Origin: Lentisphaerae bacterium ADurb.Bin242
Lineage (GTDB): Bacteria; Verrucomicrobiota; Lentisphaeria; Victivallales; UBA1829
NCBI GenBank assembly: GCA_002069785.1
Contig: MWCA01000002.1
Location: 62,001 to 126,000, forward strand
DNA length: 64,000 nt
Reading direction: 5' to 3'
The position numbers and the translations under genes are program-made. Below are positions 17,573 to 64,000 of this stretch, one piece after another. Position 1 is the stretch's first letter. Each line of letters begins with the position of its first letter. Under the pieces are notes generated by a model that was not told where the DNA came from, did no database searches, and was given only the letters and a program-made list of their open reading frames with translations.

Positions 17573-17662
17573 CATTCGGGGGAGAAACAAACGCAAAAAA
17601 ATATGGACAGGAACAGAAAAACTTACGGGAATATCAATCCAATAATGAAACAGGAGGCGGCT

Positions 17663-19504
17663 ATGAACTTTTTATCGGACAAACGGCTTTTCTATCCGGG
17701 GGTTCTGGTGCTGGCATGGATCATTCTTACACCACTGCACAGCTATCCGTGGTGCATGTTTGCCCTGACGGGTCTCCTTGCCGCACTTGCCGGAGTCTGG
17801 TTCGCCGGAGAGCGGAGCATGAAACACTTCCTGATCGGGCTCGGAGGCACAATCCTGCTTTCCTTTCCCGCCGTTGTCGCCAATGCACTGGAAAACCGTC
17901 CGCTCAAAACCATGTTGAAAGAGCTCCTTCCGAACGATTACCAATGGCGAAGAGCCTTTCTTGCCTCCGAGACGATCCCCGACTGGACGACATGGACTTT
18001 GATCTGCCTCGTAATTCTGGTAACCATTGTCCTTTTCATCGTATTCTTCAACTGCCGTATTCTCGTCGGCAATCCATATCTTTCATTTCCCGCCGCCATT
18101 GTCGCGCTTGGGATTGCAAGTCTCACCTTCACATGGACCTTTTACGGTCTTCTGGCATTTCACGTGTTCCTCACCCCGAAAAGATATACGGGAATCTTTT
18201 TCATGGAAAAACACATGATTCCCGCGCTCTGCATAACGATCATCCTCTTATTTCTGCTCCTGTTTTTCTGGACATTCCTGAATCTCCGCCGCAACGGTCC
18301 GAACTGGAAAAAGCTGCTGAAGGACATCGGACTCACCGCGGGGGTCTGCGTGTTTGTCTGGCTGGCAGCCGCGGTGGTCGCCCTCGCCTACGGACACGCC
18401 GCCATCGCGGAATCGGCGCACCTGTTTCCGATGGCGAAACGTCCCGGCGTTCCGCAGGCCATGCTCGACGCGGATGAAAAACAGAACGAATGGTTCCGTA
18501 AGTTCAATGAAGAGAACCCGGATTTTCAGCTTCCAATGGAATCGGTCCGTTCCTGGTTTACCGGTATTGGGAATCCCGTCACGGAAAAAATGAGAAAGAC
18601 GACTCTCGACATCTTTCAGTCCCCGCAAGGGGCGGATTACTTCCGCCGGAATTCGGAACTGATCGCCCGTTACAAAGAAGAACTTCCGCTGTATGACTGG
18701 AACTTCTCCGGTTCCATTTCCGCACTGAACGGATGGCGCGCTTCCGCAAGACGCACCTGTTCACGGGCCGAGCTTCTGGCCTATCTCGGACGCGAAAAGG
18801 AAGTGCTGCCGGCGCTGGAGGAACTTGTCGGATTTGAAAATGCAATTGAAAAAAATCAGCAAACGCTGTATGAATCCATCATTCTCAGGGCAATCTGGTT
18901 CATTCGTTCCGTGACGATCATTCAGTTCGGCCCGTTATCGCCGGAATATGCTTCGTTTTACCGGAAGGAACTGGACACGCTTCTCAACTCCCGTATCCGC
19001 ATCCCGAATGAAGCCCCGCGGTATGCACGGGAAATCGAAAGGGTATTCCGTCTGTGTCCTTATAATCCGGAATCCGGCAATTCTTTGTACAATCGTATTC
19101 TTTCCTTTCCATTTTCGGCAATCATTTTCGGACGAGACGCATTCGCGCTCATGAAGCACAAAGAAGAAATCGAGCGGCTTGCAAACCAGTCGGTAATCGG
19201 TAAAACGGAGACCGATTCCTCCCGGACAACGGCTGTCGAAGAAGCCAGGATGACCTGTCTCCATACGGCATACACGAAATCAATCATGACGGCCGCGCTA
19301 GCCTTGAAATGGTATCGCTGCGAAAAGGGGCATTACCCGAAAACGCTTCAGGAACTGACACCGGAATTCCTGAAACAGCTCCCGGTCGATCCGGCCGACG
19401 GCGCGCCGCTCGTCTATGAACTTCTGCCGGACGGTTCTTTCCGTCTGGATATGCCGTCATCCAAACACCTCAAGATCAAATCAAGATTGGAGTTTCTCGA
19501 ATAA
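17663..19504 (+). CDS. Multi-pass membrane protein with C-terminal pseudopilin-like head
   Basis: The ATG at 17663 is chosen because AGGAGG lies just before it and because the downstream paralog starts with the same MNFLSDKRLFYPG; an upstream ATG at 17603 is possible. The 613-residue protein has about seven transmembrane segments in its first 260 residues, a helical soluble middle, and a C-terminal segment beginning ALKWYRCEKGHYPKTLQEL and continuing PVDPADGAPLVYE. That pattern resembles the head of GspG-type pseudopilins. Many planctomycete and Lentisphaerota proteins end this way, to my recollection without a known role. Confidence 0.65.
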   Translation: MNFLSDKRLFYPGVLVLAWIILTPLHSYPWCMFALTGLLAALAGVWFAGERSMKHFLIGLGGTILLSFPAVVANALENRPLKTMLKELLPNDYQWRRAFLASETIPDWTTWTLICLVILVTIVLFIVFFNCRILVGNPYLSFPAAIVALGIASLTFTWTFYGLLAFHVFLTPKRYTGIFFMEKHMIPALCITIILLFLLLFFWTFLNLRRNGPNWKKLLKDIGLTAGVCVFVWLAAAVVALAYGHAAIAESAHLFPMAKRPGVPQAMLDADEKQNEWFRKFNEENPDFQLPMESVRSWFTGIGNPVTEKMRKTTLDIFQSPQGADYFRRNSELIARYKEELPLYDWNFSGSISALNGWRASARRTCSRAELLAYLGREKEVLPALEELVGFENAIEKNQQTLYESIILRAIWFIRSVTIIQFGPLSPEYASFYRKELDTLLNSRIRIPNEAPRYAREIERVFRLCPYNPESGNSLYNRILSFPFSAIIFGRDAFALMKHKEEIERLANQSVIGKTETDSSRTTAVEEARMTCLHTAYTKSIMTAALALKWYRCEKGHYPKTLQELTPEFLKQLPVDPADGAPLVYELLPDGSFRLDMPSSKHLKIKSRLEFLE

Positions 19505-51540: not shown

Positions 51541-52316
51541 GGGCAAGGGATAATGGAATAAAAAAACAAAAGAGCAACGGCAATTCCCTGGATCCAGTTT
51601 CCGATCCGTGCATGAGACATGGGATGCCCCCAACGATCTTTTTTCGGCAGAAGTCCCAGAAAGGCCAGCAGAAGAAGAAAAAAGAAAATCAGAGAAACGC
51701 TGCCGCCATAAAAGAAAAAACAGGAGAAAACGACCTGAAGGACCGCAAACGGCCAGCGTCCGATATAAAGCCAATGAAGTCCGGCGACACCGCCGAAAAC
51801 CCACAAAAGTGCGTAAATCTTGCGGGACCGCGGCGGAAGGGTATCGTGACGGCGATCCAGTTCGAAAGCAATACAGCCGAAAGTCCCCAGCAGAACACCG
51901 TACAACATGCCGGGACTGGAGCCGCCCGCACGGGCATACTGCCGCAGGAGTTCGGGCTCTTCCGGAACCGCGAGGAAAACATTCCTGAAAGTTTCCGTAT
52001 CCAGATGCGCATACAGAACGCCGATTTCCCCGCCGATCAGAAATCCGGCCGCGGCGCTTCCGGCAAGCACGGCAAGCTGAATCCAGCGAAAATCCCGGCA
52101 GAAGCCAAGAATCAGCAGGGCGGCCGCCAGACCGGCCAGAGCACCGTCACGCATCCCGATCAGGAGCGCATCAAATCCGGATCCGATCGCAAAATACGTA
52201 GGGCGGACACAGATGTCGAAGTAAATCGGACTGAGATACACATTGATCGCATTCAGAAGCAGGCCGGTAACAGCCCCTCCGGCAACCGCCGCAAGAAGAA
52301 AGAAGATCTTTCTCAT
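51486..52316 (-). CDS. Multi-pass membrane protein, probably frameshifted from its pseudopilin head
   Basis: This 276-residue frame has six to seven hydrophobic segments (FFLLAAVAGGAVTGLLLNAI; GALAGLAAALLILGF; LAVLAGSAAAGFLIGG; IYALLWVFGGVAGLHWLY; LIFFFLLLLAFLGLLP; IQGIAVALLFFYSIIP) and then an implausible tail of about 20 residues (VTPARKRWRCPAAISSD). In the neighbouring frame the sequence goes on as a pseudopilin-like head (51166-51540). The intact protein would be about 380 residues, a larger relative in plan of the 19925-20608 protein. The start overlaps the preceding stop as ATGA. Confidence 0.6.
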   Translation of the reverse strand: MRKIFFLLAAVAGGAVTGLLLNAINVYLSPIYFDICVRPTYFAIGSGFDALLIGMRDGALAGLAAALLILGFCRDFRWIQLAVLAGSAAAGFLIGGEIGVLYAHLDTETFRNVFLAVPEEPELLRQYARAGGSSPGMLYGVLLGTFGCIAFELDRRHDTLPPRSRKIYALLWVFGGVAGLHWLYIGRWPFAVLQVVFSCFFFYGGSVSLIFFFLLLLAFLGLLPKKDRWGHPMSHARIGNWIQGIAVALLFFYSIIPCPVTPARKRWRCPAAISSD

Positions 52317-54397
52317 GGTTTCAATCTCCTGATCACATGAATATCGTCGGAATATTCGTTTCGCTTATCGGTCTTTCCGGTTGGCAGTCCGCCGCTGTCC
52401 TTCCGGTCCGCACCGACACTCCAGACCTGAACGGCGGGGACAACAGTTTCCGTGTCAACAACTCCACCCAAAAAGAATTTTTCGGAATCATTTGTGACCG
52501 TATTCCAGACAATCTTTGCATTTTCGACACGGCATTCCCCCACGCGATAATTCAACGGTTTTCCATTGTAAGGATCAAGCGGGAGATTCTCCATCCGGTC
52601 CGGATAACGGTCGTGTTCCAGCTTGTATCGTTCCGCGCAAACCAGAACTTGCACCGCACGCAATTCCGCAATATAATGTCTAAAGTTATGAACAAGTGAT
52701 TGCATCCCGGTTATAGCATGAATGACAATCGGAAGTTTTTCGCAACCACGGGACAAGTCAAACTTGTCGAATGCCGTTTCTCCGATTCCATTGACGACGA
52801 TCAACTTAAGTTGCAATCCATACCACCATAGTTGCGGAAAGAAAAAGCGGAATGCCCCCAGAGGGAAAAAAAGGACTCTCTCTATTTTATCTGAACGGGA
52901 AATAATTCCATCGGATAAAATCCGCAGAACCCCGAGTTCAAAAACACTGTTTCCGAAATGCACATGCTCAAACATTGCCGGAATTTGCTTCTCCATCCGC
53001 TCCAGAGAACCGGCAATCGTCTCCAGCTCCGCGACGGTGAGTCTTCCGGATTCCAAAAGCATTTTTACTTCCGTCAAGCGCAAAGTCCCATAACGCATCC
53101 ATACAGATAATCCGGTAAAGTCATTTTCCCGAAGAAGCCCGTTCTGCACCTTTTCCACTCGGCGCCAGATGACAAGAGCCGTTTGAGTATCGCCGTCCGC
53201 CAGGGCAAAATACAGTTTCCAGAATTCCATTCTGCAGAATTGAGTCATCAAATTCAAATTTTTGAGGTCCGTATTAAACATCTTTTCAAAAACATATTCC
53301 CGTTCACAGGGCGGAATGGGAGCGGAAAACAGAGTCTCCCATTCCGCGGATACCTTCCCGGCCTCTTTCAATTTTGCCCGGAGTAAATTTGCATCGGCTT
53401 CAGACAGGTATTTGAACGGTTCCGAAACCGGAAATGCTTCCGGCATATCAACTTCATATTTCCGGCTCAGTTCAAATGCCCTGCGCCAGAAATCCTTGTC
53501 AGGACGGGCATTCCCGTAGTAGGCCTTGCTTTTCTCTTCAAATGAAAGCGGACGCCCAAAGCGTTTTTCAAGCAAAGCCGTTTTTTGCGACACCTCCCGC
53601 ATTGAAGTCAAGGCAAGGACAAGGAAAATCAGATAGACGATTCCGGAAAGAATCCAAAGCAGAACGGTCCCTTTTCCGAATACGGCGCGCAATGAAACTT
53701 TTCCCTGTGCCGCCAGCAGCCTTGCCGTCAGAAAATACCATGCAAGAAAAAAGAACAGGATTACCAGTCCGCAAACGCCAAGAACGGCAGGCAGGGACAC
53801 TCCGAAAAACTGCCCCGCAGATAGGAACAAATCGATTCTATGTCTCACAGGACTTACCAGACTTTCCTCCGAGTCAATTCCTCTCGCACAAAACAACAGA
53901 AACAGGGTCAACCCTGCTGAAACCCCGCCGCAAAAAATATTCCATAAAGCAATTTTCCAATGACGCCCGCAAAAAGCCAATGGGAGCAGAATAAAGAAAA
54001 AACCGAAAAGCAGGATTGGAATCCATCTGGATGAAAGGTCCCACATGAAGCATGACCATCCGCCGATCAACAACAAGACGGGAAGTCCGAAGCGGAGAAT
54101 ATACTTATGAAAATCGAAGCCGGATTCACAACTCCTCAGATGGTAAAAACGGAACGTCAGGAACATATAATATATCAGAAATATCCAGAAACTGGCTTTA
54201 ATAACCAGGAACCCGATTTCAGCCTCGGTATTTCCGCACATGCATACAGATGGAGTCCCATAAAAAATATAGAGGACAGAATGATCGACAAGAACTGACA
54301 TGATGATGTAAGGTCCGATCCCCAGAAGAGTCAGGGCAAAGAAAACTCCTTGCGCCGGCGAATCCCAGAAAAACAGCTTTTTCAGAAATTTTTTCAT
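52313..54397 (-). CDS. Multi-pass membrane protein with GspG-like C-terminal head
   Basis: This 694-residue protein has about seven transmembrane segments up to residue 270. A helical region follows with LEKRFGRPLSFEEKSKAYYG, RPDKDFWRRAF, LERMEKQIPAMFEHVHFGNS and FFFPQLWW, all shared with the 59033 family. The C-terminus has YKLEHDRYPDRMENLPLDPY, then PLNYRVGE and VWSVGADRKDSGG with a final DDI, closely like the GspG pattern DPWGxPY...SxGADGxxGG...DI. ATGA overlaps join it to both neighbours. The role is unknown. Confidence 0.72.
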   Translation of the reverse strand: MKKFLKKLFFWDSPAQGVFFALTLLGIGPYIIMSVLVDHSVLYIFYGTPSVCMCGNTEAEIGFLVIKASFWIFLIYYMFLTFRFYHLRSCESGFDFHKYILRFGLPVLLLIGGWSCFMWDLSSRWIPILLFGFFFILLPLAFCGRHWKIALWNIFCGGVSAGLTLFLLFCARGIDSEESLVSPVRHRIDLFLSAGQFFGVSLPAVLGVCGLVILFFFLAWYFLTARLLAAQGKVSLRAVFGKGTVLLWILSGIVYLIFLVLALTSMREVSQKTALLEKRFGRPLSFEEKSKAYYGNARPDKDFWRRAFELSRKYEVDMPEAFPVSEPFKYLSEADANLLRAKLKEAGKVSAEWETLFSAPIPPCEREYVFEKMFNTDLKNLNLMTQFCRMEFWKLYFALADGDTQTALVIWRRVEKVQNGLLRENDFTGLSVWMRYGTLRLTEVKMLLESGRLTVAELETIAGSLERMEKQIPAMFEHVHFGNSVFELGVLRILSDGIISRSDKIERVLFFPLGAFRFFFPQLWWYGLQLKLIVVNGIGETAFDKFDLSRGCEKLPIVIHAITGMQSLVHNFRHYIAELRAVQVLVCAERYKLEHDRYPDRMENLPLDPYNGKPLNYRVGECRVENAKIVWNTVTNDSEKFFLGGVVDTETVVPAVQVWSVGADRKDSGGLPTGKTDKRNEYSDDIHVIRRLKP

Positions 54398-56337
54398 CGT
54401 TTGCCCTCTTCCAGAGGAAATACAATGTCAGAAGTCGGATTATCCCTGCCCCACTCCCGCCCGTTGTCATCCTTCAGATCGGAATCAACGCTGTAGAGTG
54501 CCCGGCCCGGAAGATAGCGCAGAGGTTTGCCGTCGAAGGGATCCTTCGGCAGGTCCGGTTTCTCCGGAAAATGCCCGTGCCGACGGCGGTATTGTTCCAG
54601 TTCGATTCCGGACTCCGCCAGACGGCAGACGGCACGGAGCCGGGACGCCCGGTTGAATTGAGGAGAAACCGGCAATGTCTCACCATCGGATGCTTCAGAA
54701 ATCTTTTCTGCTCTGTCAAGAAAACTCGCCCACATCCAGTGGATGCCGCCAAGCTGTCCCATCCGGGTCTGGAATTTTCTGAAGTCGTTCCGGGACTGCC
54801 AAGCGTCACGAGAAAGGATATCGGTCAGTTCCCGGGAGTATTCCAGAAAGGTCGCCCGCAAACTGTCGGCAAAGAAAAACAGGAGAATCCGGTTGAATAC
54901 GTTTACATTGAAATCAGGAATCAGCATTTCGGTCACCTGAGCGTTTTGTGCAAGCACATTTCCGGAAATCACGGAATCGCTCAGCGCCGCGAGTTTTTGC
55001 CAGCGGACCTTCTCCTGCGCCAGCTCCTCATCGGAGAATCGACAAAGATGTCCGGCGATAATTTTCATACGGGTTTCCAGTTCAAGATGAAAGATTCCGA
55101 AAGTCGGTTCCTCTGCCGCATACTCGGCCCGGCGTTCCAGATCGCGCAGAAGCGCACGGAAATCTCCTCCGGTTCGAAGTTCCAGCCGACGCCACCGCAG
55201 ATATTCACGTAGTTTTGCATTGCAAAGATCAATGGACTGTTTCTGTTCAGAATGGAAAATCCGGCGCAAGCCGAGCGTCGGATATTTCCACAGAATTTCG
55301 CGGATGGCGTTCAGTTGAGGTTCGACTTTCTTCAATTCGGTTCGGATGTCAGCGGGGACTGTCTCTCTATTCTGCAAAAATTCGATAGTGCGAATGGAGA
55401 TTTTCGGCAGGACGATTTTTTCCAATTCCGGCGCGGCATGAGGCTCCGGCAGAGCGGGGAGCTCATATTTCACCGCCCTGTCCCAGCGGATTTCACCAAT
55501 GATCCGCCAAGGAATCAGAAAAACAAGTGCGGCGACCATCAGACAGAGCAGAAAACGAAGCACATCAGGCACACCGCTCCGAACAAACTCGCGGTTTTTG
55601 AATTTACTCCACAGAGGAGATTTTTCTTTGCTCTTTGGAGGTTTCGGATTGGAGGTCCGCCATGCGATGTCGCGTCGTTTCAACTCCCGCGAGATCGGGA
55701 TGGAAGAAAGGCAGAGCAGCAGCCAGAAAATTCCGTAACATGCGAAAATCCAGCGTCCTCCGACCGTATCGGGAGACGCCAGAAAGAAGGAACAGTAAAA
55801 TACCGCCAGGCTGATCCAGACGAACGGATTGAGACATCGTAGAAAACGTGCGGAACGGGGCGGAAGTTCCGCGGCGCAATCCTGAAAAAAACGGTATCCT
55901 TCCACACTGTTCCACCATGGAATCATCATCCGGGCCAAACGCCATGCGGAAAAGCCGTTGTTCAGCGGAAAGAGTTCCAAGGCACGAAAGAAAGCAAGAA
56001 GACAGATTGCCCACATAGCACTGTTTTTGAGGCAGAAAAGAGGCCACCACCCCAGTCCCCTGTCCCAGAAAAGGAGAAGGAGCGGAAATGCCAGGAACAG
56101 GAGGCTGAACCCCGGAAGCCACCAGAAGGAACGCCCCAGAGAATACAGAAAAGGAAGGGTTGGCGCGAAGGTCTTCTCTTCGCTGATTTTCCGCCAGTCG
56201 CCACCCTCGACGGGACGGATCAAGGTCTGGAAATCGACTTTGTGAGAACGGAACAGTGCGAATATTTCCAGTGCGTCCAGCTCGACTTCGCCGTCGGGCA
56301 GTCGCACCACATAACGCGGAACCGGATCATTCTTCAT
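54394..56337 (-). CDS. Membrane protein with GYF-like N-terminus and GspG-like C-terminus
   Basis: This 647-residue protein opens with a GYF_2-like domain at about residues 5-55 (YVVRLPDGEVELDALEIFAL; TLIRPVEGGDWRKISE), which would lie in the cytoplasm. About six transmembrane segments follow to residue 290, then a helical soluble region. The end carries YRRRHGHFPEKPDLPKDPFD, PLRYLPG and ALYSVDSDLKDDNG...SDIVF, again the pseudopilin-head pattern. A very strong ribosome site, GGGGGAGGAAA, precedes the ATG. It leads a three-gene operon of head-bearing membrane proteins. Confidence 0.7.
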   Translation of the reverse strand: MKNDPVPRYVVRLPDGEVELDALEIFALFRSHKVDFQTLIRPVEGGDWRKISEEKTFAPTLPFLYSLGRSFWWLPGFSLLFLAFPLLLLFWDRGLGWWPLFCLKNSAMWAICLLAFFRALELFPLNNGFSAWRLARMMIPWWNSVEGYRFFQDCAAELPPRSARFLRCLNPFVWISLAVFYCSFFLASPDTVGGRWIFACYGIFWLLLCLSSIPISRELKRRDIAWRTSNPKPPKSKEKSPLWSKFKNREFVRSGVPDVLRFLLCLMVAALVFLIPWRIIGEIRWDRAVKYELPALPEPHAAPELEKIVLPKISIRTIEFLQNRETVPADIRTELKKVEPQLNAIREILWKYPTLGLRRIFHSEQKQSIDLCNAKLREYLRWRRLELRTGGDFRALLRDLERRAEYAAEEPTFGIFHLELETRMKIIAGHLCRFSDEELAQEKVRWQKLAALSDSVISGNVLAQNAQVTEMLIPDFNVNVFNRILLFFFADSLRATFLEYSRELTDILSRDAWQSRNDFRKFQTRMGQLGGIHWMWASFLDRAEKISEASDGETLPVSPQFNRASRLRAVCRLAESGIELEQYRRRHGHFPEKPDLPKDPFDGKPLRYLPGRALYSVDSDLKDDNGREWGRDNPTSDIVFPLEEGKR

Positions 56338-57757: not shown

Positions 57758-58918
57758 ATGAGTTTTTCAAATCCTTCAACGCCGAGCGCATTCGCTCCGG
57801 CGGAGAGAAAAGGCCCTTACCTGATAAAAGCGGAATCGGAACAACTCAAGTGGGAAGTGGACCGCTGTTCCTTGCTGGACGTTCTTCCCGACCTGATCGT
57901 TGTTCTCAATGACGAGCGCCAGATCCTTTTTGCCAACCGCACCCTGCTGAAGGCTCTGCACCTGGAAAACGATTCCACCATCCTCGGCATGCGTCCGGGC
58001 GAATTGCTCGACTGCGTCCATGCCAAAAACGATTCGGGCGGATGCGGCACAACGGAATTCTGCAGAGTATGCGGCGCCGTCAACTCGATCCTCCACACCC
58101 GGCAATTCCACGACAACACCTCGCGGGAATGCAGCATCATCACGGTATCGGACAAGGCGCACAACTTCCGGGTATGGACAAGTCCTTTTGACTGCCAGGG
58201 CTGCCATTTTACCCTGGTGGTGCTGCGGGACATCGCCAGCGAGGTGTATCGAAACGCGCTGGAGCGTATTTTCTTTCACGACCTGATCAACATCGTTTCC
58301 GGACTTTACGGACTGCTGACGATCATCAACGACAATCCCGACAATTACCGGGAAAACCATAAACTGCTCATCGGCCTGACGGAAGAACTTCTGGAACAGA
58401 TAGACTCTCAAAAGGATCTGCTGGCCGCCGAGGACGGTTCGATATACGTGACCGCAAGTCCGGTCACAAGCATCGGCATCATGAAATTCGTCGCCGGCGT
58501 GCTCGGCAACCTTCCAGCGGCCGGGAACAAAAACATCTCCCTGGAAAAAACATCGGAGGATACCGAATTCAAGACGGACCCCCGCTTCCTGAAAAGAATC
58601 CTCATCAATATGGGGAAAAACGCGCTGGAGGCTTCCGGTCCGGGCGATCCGGTTGTTCTGAAATCCTCCGTCGCCGGCAGCAAGGTGGTCTTTGAAGTTC
58701 ACAACAAGGGATATATCCAGCCGGAAGTCCAGCTTCAGATATTCAACCGTTTCTTCTCCACAAAAGGCGGCGGCCGCGGGCTCGGCGCCTACAGCACCAA
58801 ATTGCTGGCCGAGAAATATCTTCAGGGCAAAGTTTACTTCACCTCATCGGAGGAAAACGGCACTTCGTTCTTTCTGGAACTGCCGCTTCAGTTGGAGAAA
58901 ACGGATTCTCCCGCCTGA
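57758..58918 (+). CDS. Orphan sensor histidine kinase with Cys-rich PAS domain
   Basis: This 386-residue protein has no transmembrane segment. Residues about 35-175 form a PAS domain (LPDLIVVLNDERQILFANRT) with a cysteine cluster DSGGCGTTEFCRVCGAV (four Cys counting C84 nearby), a pattern seen in some PAS domains and possibly metal- or redox-linked. The H-box is FFHDLINIVSGLYGLL. The ATPase domain has N-box NMGKNALEAS and G-boxes VHNKGYI (Asn for the usual Asp) and GGGRGLGAYS. No response regulator gene is nearby. It precedes the tandem membrane-protein array by 114 bp and might sense a signal for it. Confidence 0.85.
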   Translation: MSFSNPSTPSAFAPAERKGPYLIKAESEQLKWEVDRCSLLDVLPDLIVVLNDERQILFANRTLLKALHLENDSTILGMRPGELLDCVHAKNDSGGCGTTEFCRVCGAVNSILHTRQFHDNTSRECSIITVSDKAHNFRVWTSPFDCQGCHFTLVVLRDIASEVYRNALERIFFHDLINIVSGLYGLLTIINDNPDNYRENHKLLIGLTEELLEQIDSQKDLLAAEDGSIYVTASPVTSIGIMKFVAGVLGNLPAAGNKNISLEKTSEDTEFKTDPRFLKRILINMGKNALEASGPGDPVVLKSSVAGSKVVFEVHNKGYIQPEVQLQIFNRFFSTKGGGRGLGAYSTKLLAEKYLQGKVYFTSSEENGTSFFLELPLQLEKTDSPA

Positions 58919-59032: not shown

Positions 59033-61141
59033 ATGAAGAATCCGTTTCGGGAAATCTCATCGGGAGGCATGGAGATGTTCGTGCTCACCATGGCCACCTT
59101 CGGGGCATATACGATCATTTCGATTTTTCTCCTTTTCTGGATTCCGGGTTTCATCCCCTTGGAAAGCATTTTTCTGATTCCGGCTGTCTTTCTGATTCTT
59201 CTTCCGTGGTGGGGTATCCGGAGCGTCCGGTTTTACAACCGGCTCAACCGTGAACTCTTCACCGGCTGGCTGATGCCGCATTATGCGTTCAATGCGTTTC
59301 TGGTTCTGCTGGTCTTCGCCTGGATTATCGTAATGCTTCGGCTCCGTGATTCGGATTTTCCGGAATACTGGGGTCAGCTTCTCGGCGCGGTGCTGATCGT
59401 TTATTTCTTCGGAATCCTCCCGATTCCGGCTGCGTTCAAAAAATCAAGGAAAGCCGGGATGTATGCCGTCGCATGTCTTGTCTGCGTTACGCTCGGATTC
59501 CTTCTGCTGTTTCTGGCATGGAAAATACTGTATTATAACCTTTCTTCGGCCTTTATCATCATTGAAGAGATGTATGAGCATGGGGAAATCATGGTTACGG
59601 ATGTCAACAGATGGTTTTCTCTTTTTGGACAAAAGGTTCCGTTCACCTGGCTCCATTTCGGATGGCTGACGGGACTCGGCCTTCTTCTGCTTCTTGCGGC
59701 ATATCTTCTTTACGCCAAGATGCTTTCCGAACTCACCGGGGACTCTCTTCGAAAAATGTTCCCGAAGCCGGTTCTCTGTCTCATCGGCTCGACGGCGACA
59801 TGTCATCTTCTGTTCTTTCTCCTGATGGGAATTGCAGCAATTCAAGGCGAATCCGGCCGACGTAAGATTCAGGACCGTTTCGGACGTTATCCTTCCGCAG
59901 AAGGCATGAACGAACTTTACTTCGCAGGACAGAAACCGGACAAGGCTTTCTGGGATTATTTTTGCATGGGCAGGTTTTTGGACGATAATGGGATAAGCAA
60001 ACCACCCGAAGAAAAAGAGGTTGTGTTGGACGAAATTATCACACATCGATTTTCGGAGCTGACGGGGGAAGAAAAACGCATTTTCAGTGACACTATTACA
60101 AAACTCTCGTCATCACTGATGAAGCTGGATAATCGCCTGAAAAACGGCATCCCGAAATTCCCGCTCGAAATGAAGACTGACAAAATGCTCGCCACACAGA
60201 TCCCGCACCTCAATAGCATGCGGGTTTTCTGCTACCAGACGAAATGGAGAACTTATATGGCGCTGGAGGCGGAAAACAAACAGGAAGCGTTCCGCATTCT
60301 GGAGATTACCCGCAAAATGGCACGATATGGAGAAGGCGAAGCATTCATAATCGGCGCATTCGTCGATATTACCTGCTATAACATTTACCTCGATACACTC
60401 GAACAGCTCGTGGAAAAACATATGCTCACACGAGAACTGATTCAAATGATCTCTCAAGAACTTCTTGCGTTGGAAAAGAGAATTCCGCAGATGGAAAAGA
60501 GTTCTCTCTATTCGGAGGCCGTCTGCGGTAATGATGTTTTCAGAGCCGTTCTATCCGGACAACTGCAAATGATGCGGGATGAAAACACACTCATCATTCC
60601 AATCCGGAGTCTGCCGTTCTTTCTGCCGCAGTTCCAATGGCTTCTCCTGCAAAATCAGGTCTCGCTGCTTCGGTTTTATGACGCGGAGAACCTTGAAGCA
60701 ATTCCGGATGTCAGAAAAGAGAAAAGGACGCCAAGTAATTGGGTTGCTTATCTATTTACCCCTTCACTACGCTCGGCATATATTAAATTCCGGGGGCTGA
60801 TCGCCCGCAGTCGGGCGGAACGCGTGATTCTGGCCTGCGAACTCTTCCGCATGGACACGGGGAAGTATCCGGCATCTGCTTCCGAGCTCGTTCCGAAATA
60901 TCTGGACAGCATTCCGGAGGATCCCTTTACCGGGAAGCCTCTTCTTTTCCGGGCAGGAAAAATCCGGGTGGAAGTATGGAAAATCGCGGAAAAAGACAAG
61001 ATCGTCCGTGTCGTCGGCGAACCGAAGGAAATCGAAGGAATTCAGGTCTGGAGCGTCGGGCCGAACGGCAAGAACGATGACGGTATTTACAACAATCAGA
61101 AAAACCAGAACGACATCCGCGCTGTAATTCAGACACGATGA
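59033..61141 (+). CDS. Multi-pass membrane protein with GspG-like head, tandem copy 1
   Basis: This 702-residue protein starts MKNPFREISSGG after GGGGGAGAAAT. About seven to eight transmembrane segments fill residues 12-275. The helical middle has DRFGRYPSAEGMNELYFAGQ, KPDKAFWDYF, LEKRIPQMEKSSLYSEAV and FFLPQFQWLLLQ. The C-terminal head reads CELFRMDTGKYPASASELVP, then PEDPFTGKPLLFRAG and VWSVGPNGKNDDG...NDIRAVI, the pseudopilin GspG pattern. It is homologous to the next two genes and, more distantly, to 52313-54397. Confidence 0.75.
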   Translation: MKNPFREISSGGMEMFVLTMATFGAYTIISIFLLFWIPGFIPLESIFLIPAVFLILLPWWGIRSVRFYNRLNRELFTGWLMPHYAFNAFLVLLVFAWIIVMLRLRDSDFPEYWGQLLGAVLIVYFFGILPIPAAFKKSRKAGMYAVACLVCVTLGFLLLFLAWKILYYNLSSAFIIIEEMYEHGEIMVTDVNRWFSLFGQKVPFTWLHFGWLTGLGLLLLLAAYLLYAKMLSELTGDSLRKMFPKPVLCLIGSTATCHLLFFLLMGIAAIQGESGRRKIQDRFGRYPSAEGMNELYFAGQKPDKAFWDYFCMGRFLDDNGISKPPEEKEVVLDEIITHRFSELTGEEKRIFSDTITKLSSSLMKLDNRLKNGIPKFPLEMKTDKMLATQIPHLNSMRVFCYQTKWRTYMALEAENKQEAFRILEITRKMARYGEGEAFIIGAFVDITCYNIYLDTLEQLVEKHMLTRELIQMISQELLALEKRIPQMEKSSLYSEAVCGNDVFRAVLSGQLQMMRDENTLIIPIRSLPFFLPQFQWLLLQNQVSLLRFYDAENLEAIPDVRKEKRTPSNWVAYLFTPSLRSAYIKFRGLIARSRAERVILACELFRMDTGKYPASASELVPKYLDSIPEDPFTGKPLLFRAGKIRVEVWKIAEKDKIVRVVGEPKEIEGIQVWSVGPNGKNDDGIYNNQKNQNDIRAVIQTR

Positions 61142-63390
61142 ATTGTGATTTCACATAACCGATGAATGTAAAACAGGATAAATGGAGGCAGGAAATATGA
61201 AAAATCCGTTTCGGGATATCTCTCCGGGCGGCAGGATGATATTTGCACTCACCATGCTCACCTTCGGGGCTTATGCGCTCACTTCGGTCTTTCTGCTCTT
61301 CTGGATTCCGGGCGTCATTCCCATGGGAAGCATCTTTTTCCTGCCTCCGGTATTGCTTATCCTCTTCCTCTGGTATTGCATCCGGAGCATCCGGTTTTAT
61401 AACCGGCTCAACCGCGAACTCTTCACCGACTGGCTGATGCCCCATTATGCGTTCAATACGTTTCTGATTCTGTTGATTTCCGGATTTTTCTTCGTGGTGT
61501 TTCGAATCCGCAATTTTGATTTTCCGGAATACTGGGGCCAGCTTTTCATCACGGTGTTGATCGCTTATTTCTTCGGGATACTGCCTCTTCCCGCCGCCTT
61601 CAAGAAGTCGAGGAAGGCCGGAATTTATGTGCTTCTCTCGCTCTTTTGTGCATGGATCGGTTTTCTGTTTCTGTCTCTGGCGTGTAAAATGATGCTGCAC
61701 GGATTTTTTTCCCTCTACAGAGTTATTGAAAAATTGTCTGCCGACCCTATGGAAACCGATTTTCGCTGGTTTTCACTGTTCGGACAGAAGGTTCCTCTCG
61801 CGTTCCTTCATCTGGAATGGCTGATAGGGATTAGTCTTGCATTGCTTCTTGCTGCCTGTTTTTTCTATGCGAAAATGCTTTCCGAACTCACCGGAGAACC
61901 GTTGAGAAAAATTTTCCCGAAGCCGGTTTTTTATCTGGTCGGTGCGACGGCCGCATGTCATATTCTTTTCTTGCTTCTTTGCTGGTCCGCCGCATCTCAA
62001 CTTGAATCCGCACGGTTGCAAATTCAAAAACGTTTCGGTCGTTACCCAAACGCGGAAGAATTAAGCAAGCTATATTTTTCAGGAATGAAATCGGACAAAA
62101 ATTTCTGGTTTTCCCTTGAAAAAGCACTTGAAAATCCAAACGAAGATAGGTTCCGTACACCAAAAGCATCAGACATTCCGTATGATTTCTTTCCCGACCG
62201 ATTCATCTTATTGACCGATCAGGAAAAACGTATGTTCGATATTGAACTGTCTAAAAAATCTTCCGCTCTTGCTGAAATGCTTCTCTTCATGAATGCGGGA
62301 ATCCCGAAATATCCATTCAATATCAAAAAAGGAGAGATAATGATTTGCAATTTTCATAATCATATGATCATGCGTTTATTTTCCCGACACACATCATGGA
62401 AAAGTTGCATAGCGTTGGAAGGGGGAAACAAAAGCGAAGCCTTCCGCTTTGCGGAACTCACACGAAAAATGGCGCAATACGGAGAAAACCACCCCTTTCT
62501 GATAGGTGCGCTGTCCAACATTAAAAGCTACAACCATTACTTCGATTCCCTCGAACGACTTACTGAAAAACATTTTCTGACCCGTGAACAGATTCAAATG
62601 ATCTCAGGGGAACTTCTTGCCATGGAAATGAGACTTCCGCGCATGGAGAAAGACACTCTTTTTTCGGATGCAGTCGGAGCTAGTGAAGACCTGACGGAAT
62701 TAATTCTGAATCCTCCAGAAGAGTATGGACAAGGCTATTCCATTCGTCGTATGCCGTTGTTTCTGCCGCAGCTTTACTGGCTGCTCCTTCTTAATCAGAC
62801 ATCACTCGTAAAAGCTTATGATGTTGATGATTTCGGTAAAATTCCTTCTTCAAGAAACATTCCGCTGAAACCGTCCTTGATGGCAAAAAGAATGTTCACT
62901 GGCTCATCGGAATCCGTGCACATTAAATTTATGAATCTGCTTGCGCGAAGCCGGGCGGAACGCGTGATTCTGGCCTGCGAACTCTTCCGCATGGACACCG
63001 GAAAGTATCCGACAGCCGCTTCCGAGCTCGTTCCGAAATATCTGGACAGCATTCCGGAGGATCCCTTTACCGGGAAGCTTCTTCTTTTCCGGGCAGGAAA
63101 AATCCGGGTGGAAGTATGGAAAATCGCGGAAAAAGACAAGATCGTCCGCGTCGTCGGCGAACCGAAGGAAATCGAAGGAATTCAGGTCTGGAGCGTCGGA
63201 CCGAACGGCAAGGACGATGACGGTATTTACAACAATCAGAAAAACCAGGACGACATCCGCGCTGTAATTCAGACACGATGAATTGTGATTTCACATAACC
63301 ATTGAATGTAAAACAGGATAAATAGAGGTAACGAAAATGAAGAATCCGTTTCGGGAAATCTCTCCGGGCGGCAGGATGATGTTTGCACTC
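60812..63390 (+). repeat. Near-identical tandem segment in copies 1, 2 and 3 (2140-bp period)
   Basis: The stretch from about 60812 to 61240 recurs at about 62952 to 63380 with few changes, at an offset of exactly 2140 bp. It covers the 3' end of one gene, the gap (with TGAATTGTGATTTCACATAA) and the 5' end of the next. The coding sequence between is much less alike, so gene conversion or repeated unequal crossing-over is likely. Confidence 0.8.
61197..63281 (+). CDS. Multi-pass membrane protein with GspG-like head, tandem copy 2
   Basis: The start is set at 61197 (MKNPFRDISPGG) by comparison with copy 1; GGAGG lies 8 nt before, inside an earlier in-frame ATG at 61182. The 694-residue product shares the plan of copy 1: membrane block, KRFGRYPNAEELSKLYFSGM, MRLPRMEKDTLFSDAVGAS, FLPQLYWLLL and the head PEDPFTGKLLLFRAG and VWSVGPNGKDDDG. 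The middle is well diverged, but the last 110 residues are nearly identical to copy 1. Confidence 0.75.
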   Translation: MKNPFRDISPGGRMIFALTMLTFGAYALTSVFLLFWIPGVIPMGSIFFLPPVLLILFLWYCIRSIRFYNRLNRELFTDWLMPHYAFNTFLILLISGFFFVVFRIRNFDFPEYWGQLFITVLIAYFFGILPLPAAFKKSRKAGIYVLLSLFCAWIGFLFLSLACKMMLHGFFSLYRVIEKLSADPMETDFRWFSLFGQKVPLAFLHLEWLIGISLALLLAACFFYAKMLSELTGEPLRKIFPKPVFYLVGATAACHILFLLLCWSAASQLESARLQIQKRFGRYPNAEELSKLYFSGMKSDKNFWFSLEKALENPNEDRFRTPKASDIPYDFFPDRFILLTDQEKRMFDIELSKKSSALAEMLLFMNAGIPKYPFNIKKGEIMICNFHNHMIMRLFSRHTSWKSCIALEGGNKSEAFRFAELTRKMAQYGENHPFLIGALSNIKSYNHYFDSLERLTEKHFLTREQIQMISGELLAMEMRLPRMEKDTLFSDAVGASEDLTELILNPPEEYGQGYSIRRMPLFLPQLYWLLLLNQTSLVKAYDVDDFGKIPSSRNIPLKPSLMAKRMFTGSSESVHIKFMNLLARSRAERVILACELFRMDTGKYPTAASELVPKYLDSIPEDPFTGKLLLFRAGKIRVEVWKIAEKDKIVRVVGEPKEIEGIQVWSVGPNGKDDDGIYNNQKNQDDIRAVIQTR

Positions 63391-63882
63391 ACCATGCTCA
63401 CCTTCGGGGCATATACGATCATTTCGATTTTTCTCCTTTTCTGGATTCCGGGTTTCATCCCCTTGGAAAGCATCTTTTTCCTGCCGCTGGTATTGCTTAT
63501 CCTCTTCCTCTGGTATTGCATCCGGAGCATCCGGTTTTATAACCGGCTCAACCGCGAACTCTTCACCGGCTGGCTGATGCCGCATTATGCGTTCAATACG
63601 TTTCTGATCCTGTTGGTTTCCGGATTGATCTTCGCTGTGCTCCGAATCCGCGATTTTGATTTTCCGAAATACTGGGGACAGCTTCTCGGCATGGCTCTGG
63701 TCGTTTATTTCTTCGGGATCATGCCGCTTCCGGCCGCGTTCAAAAAGTCGAAGAAAGCAGGTCTTTATGCCATTGCATGTTTTGTCTGCGTGCTGATCGC
63801 TTTTCTGCTGTTGTTTCTGGCATGGAAGATCCTTTATTATGACATCGTTGCGCCATTCAGCATTATCGAGAAAATGAACTGA
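63337..63882 (+). CDS. N-terminal half of tandem copy 3, ended by an in-frame stop
   Basis: This 181-residue protein (MKNPFREISPGGRMMF) equals the first five transmembrane segments of copies 1 and 2. It stops at TGA 63880-63882 after FSIIEKMN, at the place where copy 1 continues EEMYEHGEIMVTDVNRWFSL. The same frame stays open after the stop and resumes the homology. AGAGGT lies before the ATG. It may be a split gene or a recent nonsense mutation. Confidence 0.6.
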   Translation: MKNPFREISPGGRMMFALTMLTFGAYTIISIFLLFWIPGFIPLESIFFLPLVLLILFLWYCIRSIRFYNRLNRELFTGWLMPHYAFNTFLILLVSGLIFAVLRIRDFDFPKYWGQLLGMALVVYFFGIMPLPAAFKKSKKAGLYAIACFVCVLIAFLLLFLAWKILYYDIVAPFSIIEKMN

Positions 63883-63897
63883 GGAAAGGAGGGAACC

Positions 63898-64000
63898 ATG
63901 ATTACGGATATTTACAGCTGGTTTTCTCTTTTCGGACAGAAGATTCCGCCCGCCTGGCTCCATTTCGGATGGCTGGCGGGAATCGGCGTTCTTCTGCTTT
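63898..64000 (+). CDS. Second half of tandem copy 3 (cut by window edge)
   Basis: From ATG 63898, in the same frame as the stopped first half, the sequence reads MITDIYSWFSLFGQKIPPAW and LHFGWLAGIGVLLL, matching copies 1 and 2 at the start of their next loop and helix. A very good ribosome site, AAAGGAGGGAACC, stands directly before the ATG and after the stop, so this half can be translated as a separate protein. The rest lies outside the window. Confidence 0.6.
   Translation, partial: MITDIYSWFSLFGQKIPPAWLHFGWLAGIGVLLL

Follow-up and report, generated by a model that had tools for sequence, protein, structure and literature searches.

What has become of a gene when its reading frame stops at a TGA codon and, a few nucleotides later, resumes without a change of frame behind a strong ribosome site? 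This is the situation of the last of three tandem gene copies in Lentisphaerae bacterium ADurb.Bin242, at the right end of the window, by which we mean the whole analysed stretch of 64,000 nucleotides (positions 62001-126000 of a 141,929-base contig, G000:C2). Lineage-specific fission or an early pseudogene in a family of tandem paralogs is a known concept. Gene fission is familiar as a kind of event, and so are cistrons that lie close together and each have a ribosome site. The locus resembles these cases in that one of three copies is interrupted and the others are whole, and differs in that the restart has a near-ideal ribosome site and no other damage accompanies it. A literature search on gene fission returned nothing relevant. 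We consider here the reading frames, the site, its predicted RNA structure, the relatives and the constraint on both parts of the gene.

Results

The three copies are spaced by ~2.15 kb (Table 1), which bears out the description of a third tandem copy in an earlier sequence-only reading of this DNA. Copies 1 and 2 are uninterrupted single frames of ~700 codons each when their ORFs are read, as had been stated. Copy 3 starts at ATG 63337, and the stop and the same-frame reopening behind AAAGGAGGGAACC were both found as described. The gene runs past the window edge in the same contig, where a decayed frame would have spoken against a restart; what follows is a clean frame of 516 codons without further stop, with the same C-terminal end as copies 1 and 2. 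Thus, copy 3 has exactly one interruption, and it otherwise keeps every gene feature. A MATE-family gene adjoins the array 3′ of copy 3. A histidine-kinase-like protein (57758-58918, + strand), whose NCBIfam matches are weak to moderate with none above cut-off, also adjoins the array.

Table 1. Features of the tandem array, its distant paralog and the predicted hairpin, in window positions (L005 position + 56000 = window position).
Feature	Position	Strand	Description
Distant paralog	52313..54397	-	Uninterrupted, 694 aa; 27% identity to copy 1 (matched part)
Copy 1	59033..61141	+	Uninterrupted, 702 aa
Copy 2	61197..63281	+	Uninterrupted, ~694 aa from ATG 61197; 699 aa from alternative ATG 61182
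Copy 3, first ORF	63337..63882	+	181 aa, hydrophobic N-terminal part, stop TGA 63880-63882
Copy 3, gap	63883..63897	+	15 nt, GGAAAGGAGGGAACC, contains Shine-Dalgarno sequence, duplex -12.4 kcal/mol
Copy 3, second ORF	63898..65448 (window-equivalent; L005 7898-9448)	+	ATG 63898, 516 aa
Hairpin 5′ arm	63884..63898	+	Predicted 15-bp RNA helix covering the Shine-Dalgarno sequence
Hairpin 3′ arm	63919..63933	+	W-F-S-L-F codons; similar in copies 1 and 2

Searches of the whole proteins against Pfam and NCBIfam gave nothing above cut-off for the family. The C-terminal stretch DTGKYP...DPFTGKPL matches T2SSG (PF08334) weakly in three of the four proteins (E 0.083-0.24), at 13.4 bits against a curated cut-off of 21. 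Of 11 weak PDB profile matches, five are type II secretion G-like chains. A model of the C-terminal domain (pLDDT 72.6) has a type IV pilin as its best fold match, with an E-value of 0.76, and a whole-protein model made with four sequences has a mean pLDDT of 51 and was set aside. The likeness to the major pseudopilin GspG domain of the type II secretion system is therefore below threshold, and it concerns only the extreme C-terminal end of a protein that spans the membrane several times; the family is uncharacterised, and we make no claim that it belongs to T2SSG or to the pilins. Further large uncharacterised proteins that are hydrophobic at least N-terminally and carry a C-terminal stretch YP...DPF.GKPL are encoded at 52313-56337 (- strand) and 17603-19504 (+ strand). 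Several YP...DPF.GKPL proteins, some of them in tandem, are found in this genome and in a genus mate.

By hydropathy, the stop falls in a loop of ~45 residues between hydrophobic segments, in agreement with the earlier placement of it between transmembrane segments. Four segments of the first part rise above the hydropathy threshold of 1.6; residues ~15-39 stay below it, and the stretch near them is taken to span the membrane too. Nowhere in the region is variation greater than in this loop. Its length differs among the three copies (E-M-Y-E-H-G-E in copy 1, E-K-L-S-A-D in copy 2, split in copy 3), it varies across the family, and it is gapped in an alignment of eleven family sequences. Compared with copy 1, the copy 3 loop has 3 extra nt and many changes, so it does not look like the copy 1 loop with one fresh change. 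Whatever its cause, a break in this loop is at the least harmful location.

The anti-Shine-Dalgarno duplex at ATG 63898 is stronger than those at the own starts of copies 1, 2 and 3 (-11.2, -9.3 and -7.2 kcal/mol). Among 2118 internal in-frame ATGs of the same genome, taken from 267 long ORFs (>=200 aa, greedy pick, uncurated) in 474 kb, only six have a site as strong, and ATG 63898 exceeds the other 2112. Some of these six lie inside uninterrupted coding sequence, and strong internal sites do occur inside long ORFs; others may be the true starts of over-extended ORFs. When single-base nonsense changes were placed at random, 25 of 35,289 (0.07%) fell 0-30 nt upstream of an equally strong in-frame site, a share that rose to 1.2% (425/35,289) when the limit was loosened to -9 and three different start codons were allowed. 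Neither these figures nor the internal-ATG count is a clean test, because the split was noticed for being striking. The claim that the site was selected rather than accidental stands in part: the site is too strong for a typical accident. Selection itself finds no support, with no split homolog seen among the 38 other long matches listed and with unsplit copies that fold at the same place. At that place copy 1 has an ATG (59591) with a weak site of -5.5 kcal/mol, a strength reached or exceeded by 394 of 2051 internal ATGs (19%), and copy 2 has no site (+0.2 kcal/mol).

The ribosome site is predicted to be hidden in RNA structure, the feature that coupling by RNA unfolding calls for. The hairpin has a loop of 20 nt and, folded alone (56 nt), an energy of -17.9 kcal/mol (z -3.84), and the total energy of the 121-nt stretch around it is ordinary (z -0.08). 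A helix of 15 bp was reached at none of 1506 other ATGs and at none of 387 other ATGs with a Shine-Dalgarno sequence (one of which has 14); when the upstream side was shuffled, 18 of 5000 sequences reached it. The same loop also folds in copy 1 (-12.3 kcal/mol, z -1.46) and in copy 2 (-19.3 kcal/mol, z -3.17), which weakens the hairpin as a hallmark of the split. The three predicted hairpins (59576-59629, 61734-61790 and 63880-63935) share the pyrimidine-rich 3′ arm and differ in their 5′ arms. Since the unsplit copies fold with the same 3′ arm, the hairpin seems to predate the split, and something other than translation may account for the purine-rich arm. This arm may have arisen by template switching between the hairpin arms; three of the 15 pairs are G-U, a kind that one round of copying would not produce.

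Searches for an ortholog of the array in 3 genomes of the genus, 36 of the family and 137 of the order, and in the scanned collection of genome contigs, found none. The family profile does match 64 of the 137 order genomes, in distant members. Among the matches listed, 39 span the model from position <=104 to >=583, and 38 of these are uninterrupted with copy 3 as the sole exception. Split homologs were thus sought in the order and none besides copy 3 came to light among these long matches; the split is shared by no relative examined, and the test for a conserved split failed in a comparison limited to distant relatives, close orthologs being absent. Four of the 38 matches had been flagged with one TGA (in G104, G103, G114 and G095) and were rejected as split relatives because the stop is at the match edge in each: it is the end of the frame in G103, G114 and G095 and lies just upstream of the frame in G104. 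Outside these four, a weak family match with a TAA occurs in G034:C135. As a base-rate control for stops we used ABC_tran, which replaced Sulfatase since the latter gave only 2 matches. None of the 47 ABC_tran matches in the own genome has an internal stop, and the assembly is therefore not full of false stops.

Both parts of copy 3 look constrained. Between copies 1 and 3, dN/dS is 0.24 in the N part and 0.30 in the C part. With copy 2 as the third point, three-point dN in one part is 0.037 for copy 3 vs 0.105 for copy 1, and in the other 0.059 vs 0.102; bootstrap intervals for the lower copy 3 value exclude zero in both. Copies 2 and 3 have exchanged sequence, which affects the estimate for the first part. 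Copy 3 retains all 12 residues that are near-invariant in the family. A search of copy 3 for signs of a pseudogene (further stops, frameshifts, relaxed constraint) found none, a result that a very young lesion would give too. Under untranslated drift, a new stop is expected after a median of 19 substitutions, with a 95th percentile of 80, or 5.2% divergence. Copies 1 and 3 differ at ~20% of sites, so the second part has been coding through most of the history of copy 3. Constraint would look alike, however, whether the split is recent or has been maintained, and with no array ortholog found it may predate the stop.

The array also bears marks of exchange. The junction between copies 1 and 2 (60797-61577) is 73-98% identical to that between copies 2 and 3 (~62937-63717), mostly >90% and with a sharp left edge, while copies 1 and 2 share only about 50-60% identity in their middles. 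This contrast points to gene conversion or unequal exchange that has recently crossed the junctions. The split falls outside this tract.

Discussion

We favor, at a probability of roughly 0.55, the reading that copy 3, a gene for an uncharacterised multi-span membrane protein, has undergone a lineage-specific fission and that two cistrons are read from its mRNA. Ribosomes would finish the 181-aa membrane part at the TGA, and translation of the 516-aa part, with two hydrophobic regions and a large C-terminal region, would begin 15 nt further along from a strong Shine-Dalgarno site of its own. The restart is probably real, inasmuch as it allows the second piece to be produced. Judged from the sequence, both pieces would be translated. 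Ribosomes would initiate anew at the strong site, and coupling may contribute in part: a ribosome that terminates at the TGA would sit over some of the 5′ arm of the hairpin and so expose the site. An internal promoter was also looked for as a source of the second ORF. The weak match at L005 7839-7866 (9/12) is one of 4 found where 6.4 were expected in shuffles, which gives no evidence of such a promoter.

Translationally coupled (termination-reinitiation) gene pairs offer the closest comparison (PMC6728339; PMC10666635; PMC12548453). In them, as in copy 3, a stop is followed on the same strand by a short gap, a ribosome site and a start, and the site is under predicted structure that the upstream ribosome could open. 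The usual arrangement in them is an overlap of -4 or -1; the spacing of copy 3 is +15 nt, in the range of variable or reduced coupling and beyond the overlap or gap of <= ~10 nt by which coupled pairs are recognized. According to PMC10666635, a gap of +14 nt cuts reinitiation by 40-80% in E. coli pairs, and distances of -8 to +10 are treated as predictive with +11 to +20 left out as variable. PMC7518266 describes stable structure directly behind a stop as lowering reinitiation; such structure insulates, and is depleted where the next gene is <25 nt away. Copy 3 is like the termination structures described there in having a stable hairpin, here beginning 1 nt behind the stop, and differs from them in that its hairpin contains a strong start. 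The review PMC12548453 sets out two models of coupling: the upstream ribosome unfolds the structure, or that ribosome itself reinitiates. Either could act at copy 3. Since structure behind the stop and a gap of 14 nt are both reported to lower reinitiation, new initiation is the simplest source of the second piece.

The alternative that carries most weight is that a young mutation has inactivated a redundant member of the tandem array, with the second frame intact for want of time. We consider it possible, at somewhat long odds. The ribosome-like sequence would then be purine-rich Gly/Lys/Glu codons that happen to pair with the conserved, pyrimidine-rich W-F-S-L-F codons, and the hairpins of the unsplit copies, which share the 3′ arm, fit this. 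So do the isolation of copy 3 as the only interrupted gene among the matches listed, the cover that copies 1 and 2 could give to its function, the variability of the loop, and the other internal ATGs with sites as strong. What a young lesion explains poorly is the rarity of a chance stop this near to such a site, whether equal strength or the loose limit is applied. Nor does the copy 3 loop look like a copy 1 loop with one fresh base change; on this point, the ancestor of copy 3 may have differed from copy 1. Another idea, that an internal start at the loop is ancestral and gave every copy a short second form, copy 3 having lost the long one, draws on the ATG at the same place in copy 1. Sites of that strength are commonplace among internal ATGs and copy 2 lacks one, and we regard the idea as very improbable.

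Two further explanations would do away with the interruption itself. A sequencing or assembly error deserves thought in an incomplete assembly of 303 contigs with completeness of 91.48% and contamination of 5.08%, but we think it unlikely. Collapse of copies 1 and 3 is unlikely because they are only ~80% identical at the DNA level here; the whole frame has one stop only, the ABC_tran control showed no internal stop, and there is no reason why an error should fall next to a strong ribosome site. Readthrough or recoding of the TGA, which would give one full-length protein, seems most improbable. The frame is indeed open between the TGA and ATG 63898, but TGA serves as the terminator of both unsplit copies and of the MATE gene that follows the array. 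We rejected recoding to selenocysteine, as there is no selA match in the own (incomplete) genome, with a selA model that matched 4 of 14 control genomes (1 over cut-off), and neither copy 1 nor copy 2 has a Cys at the corresponding place.

The suggestion that the two parts of copy 3 fold and join again found no support, and that the pieces assemble is only a guess. The fuller version, in which a site masked by an old hairpin at the loop is unmasked by terminating ribosomes, the ratio of the halves is fixed and the halves assemble in the membrane, is in our view doubtful.

It is useful to consider what either outcome would mean for this family. A young lesion would be ordinary, and neither result would greatly surprise specialists. 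If the pieces are made and do assemble, the array would hold one-piece and two-piece forms of the protein side by side as a small natural experiment, the break falling in the most variable loop of the family. The array would also illustrate a route by which a gene can be split without loss of function, through a ribosome site arising in a coding loop.
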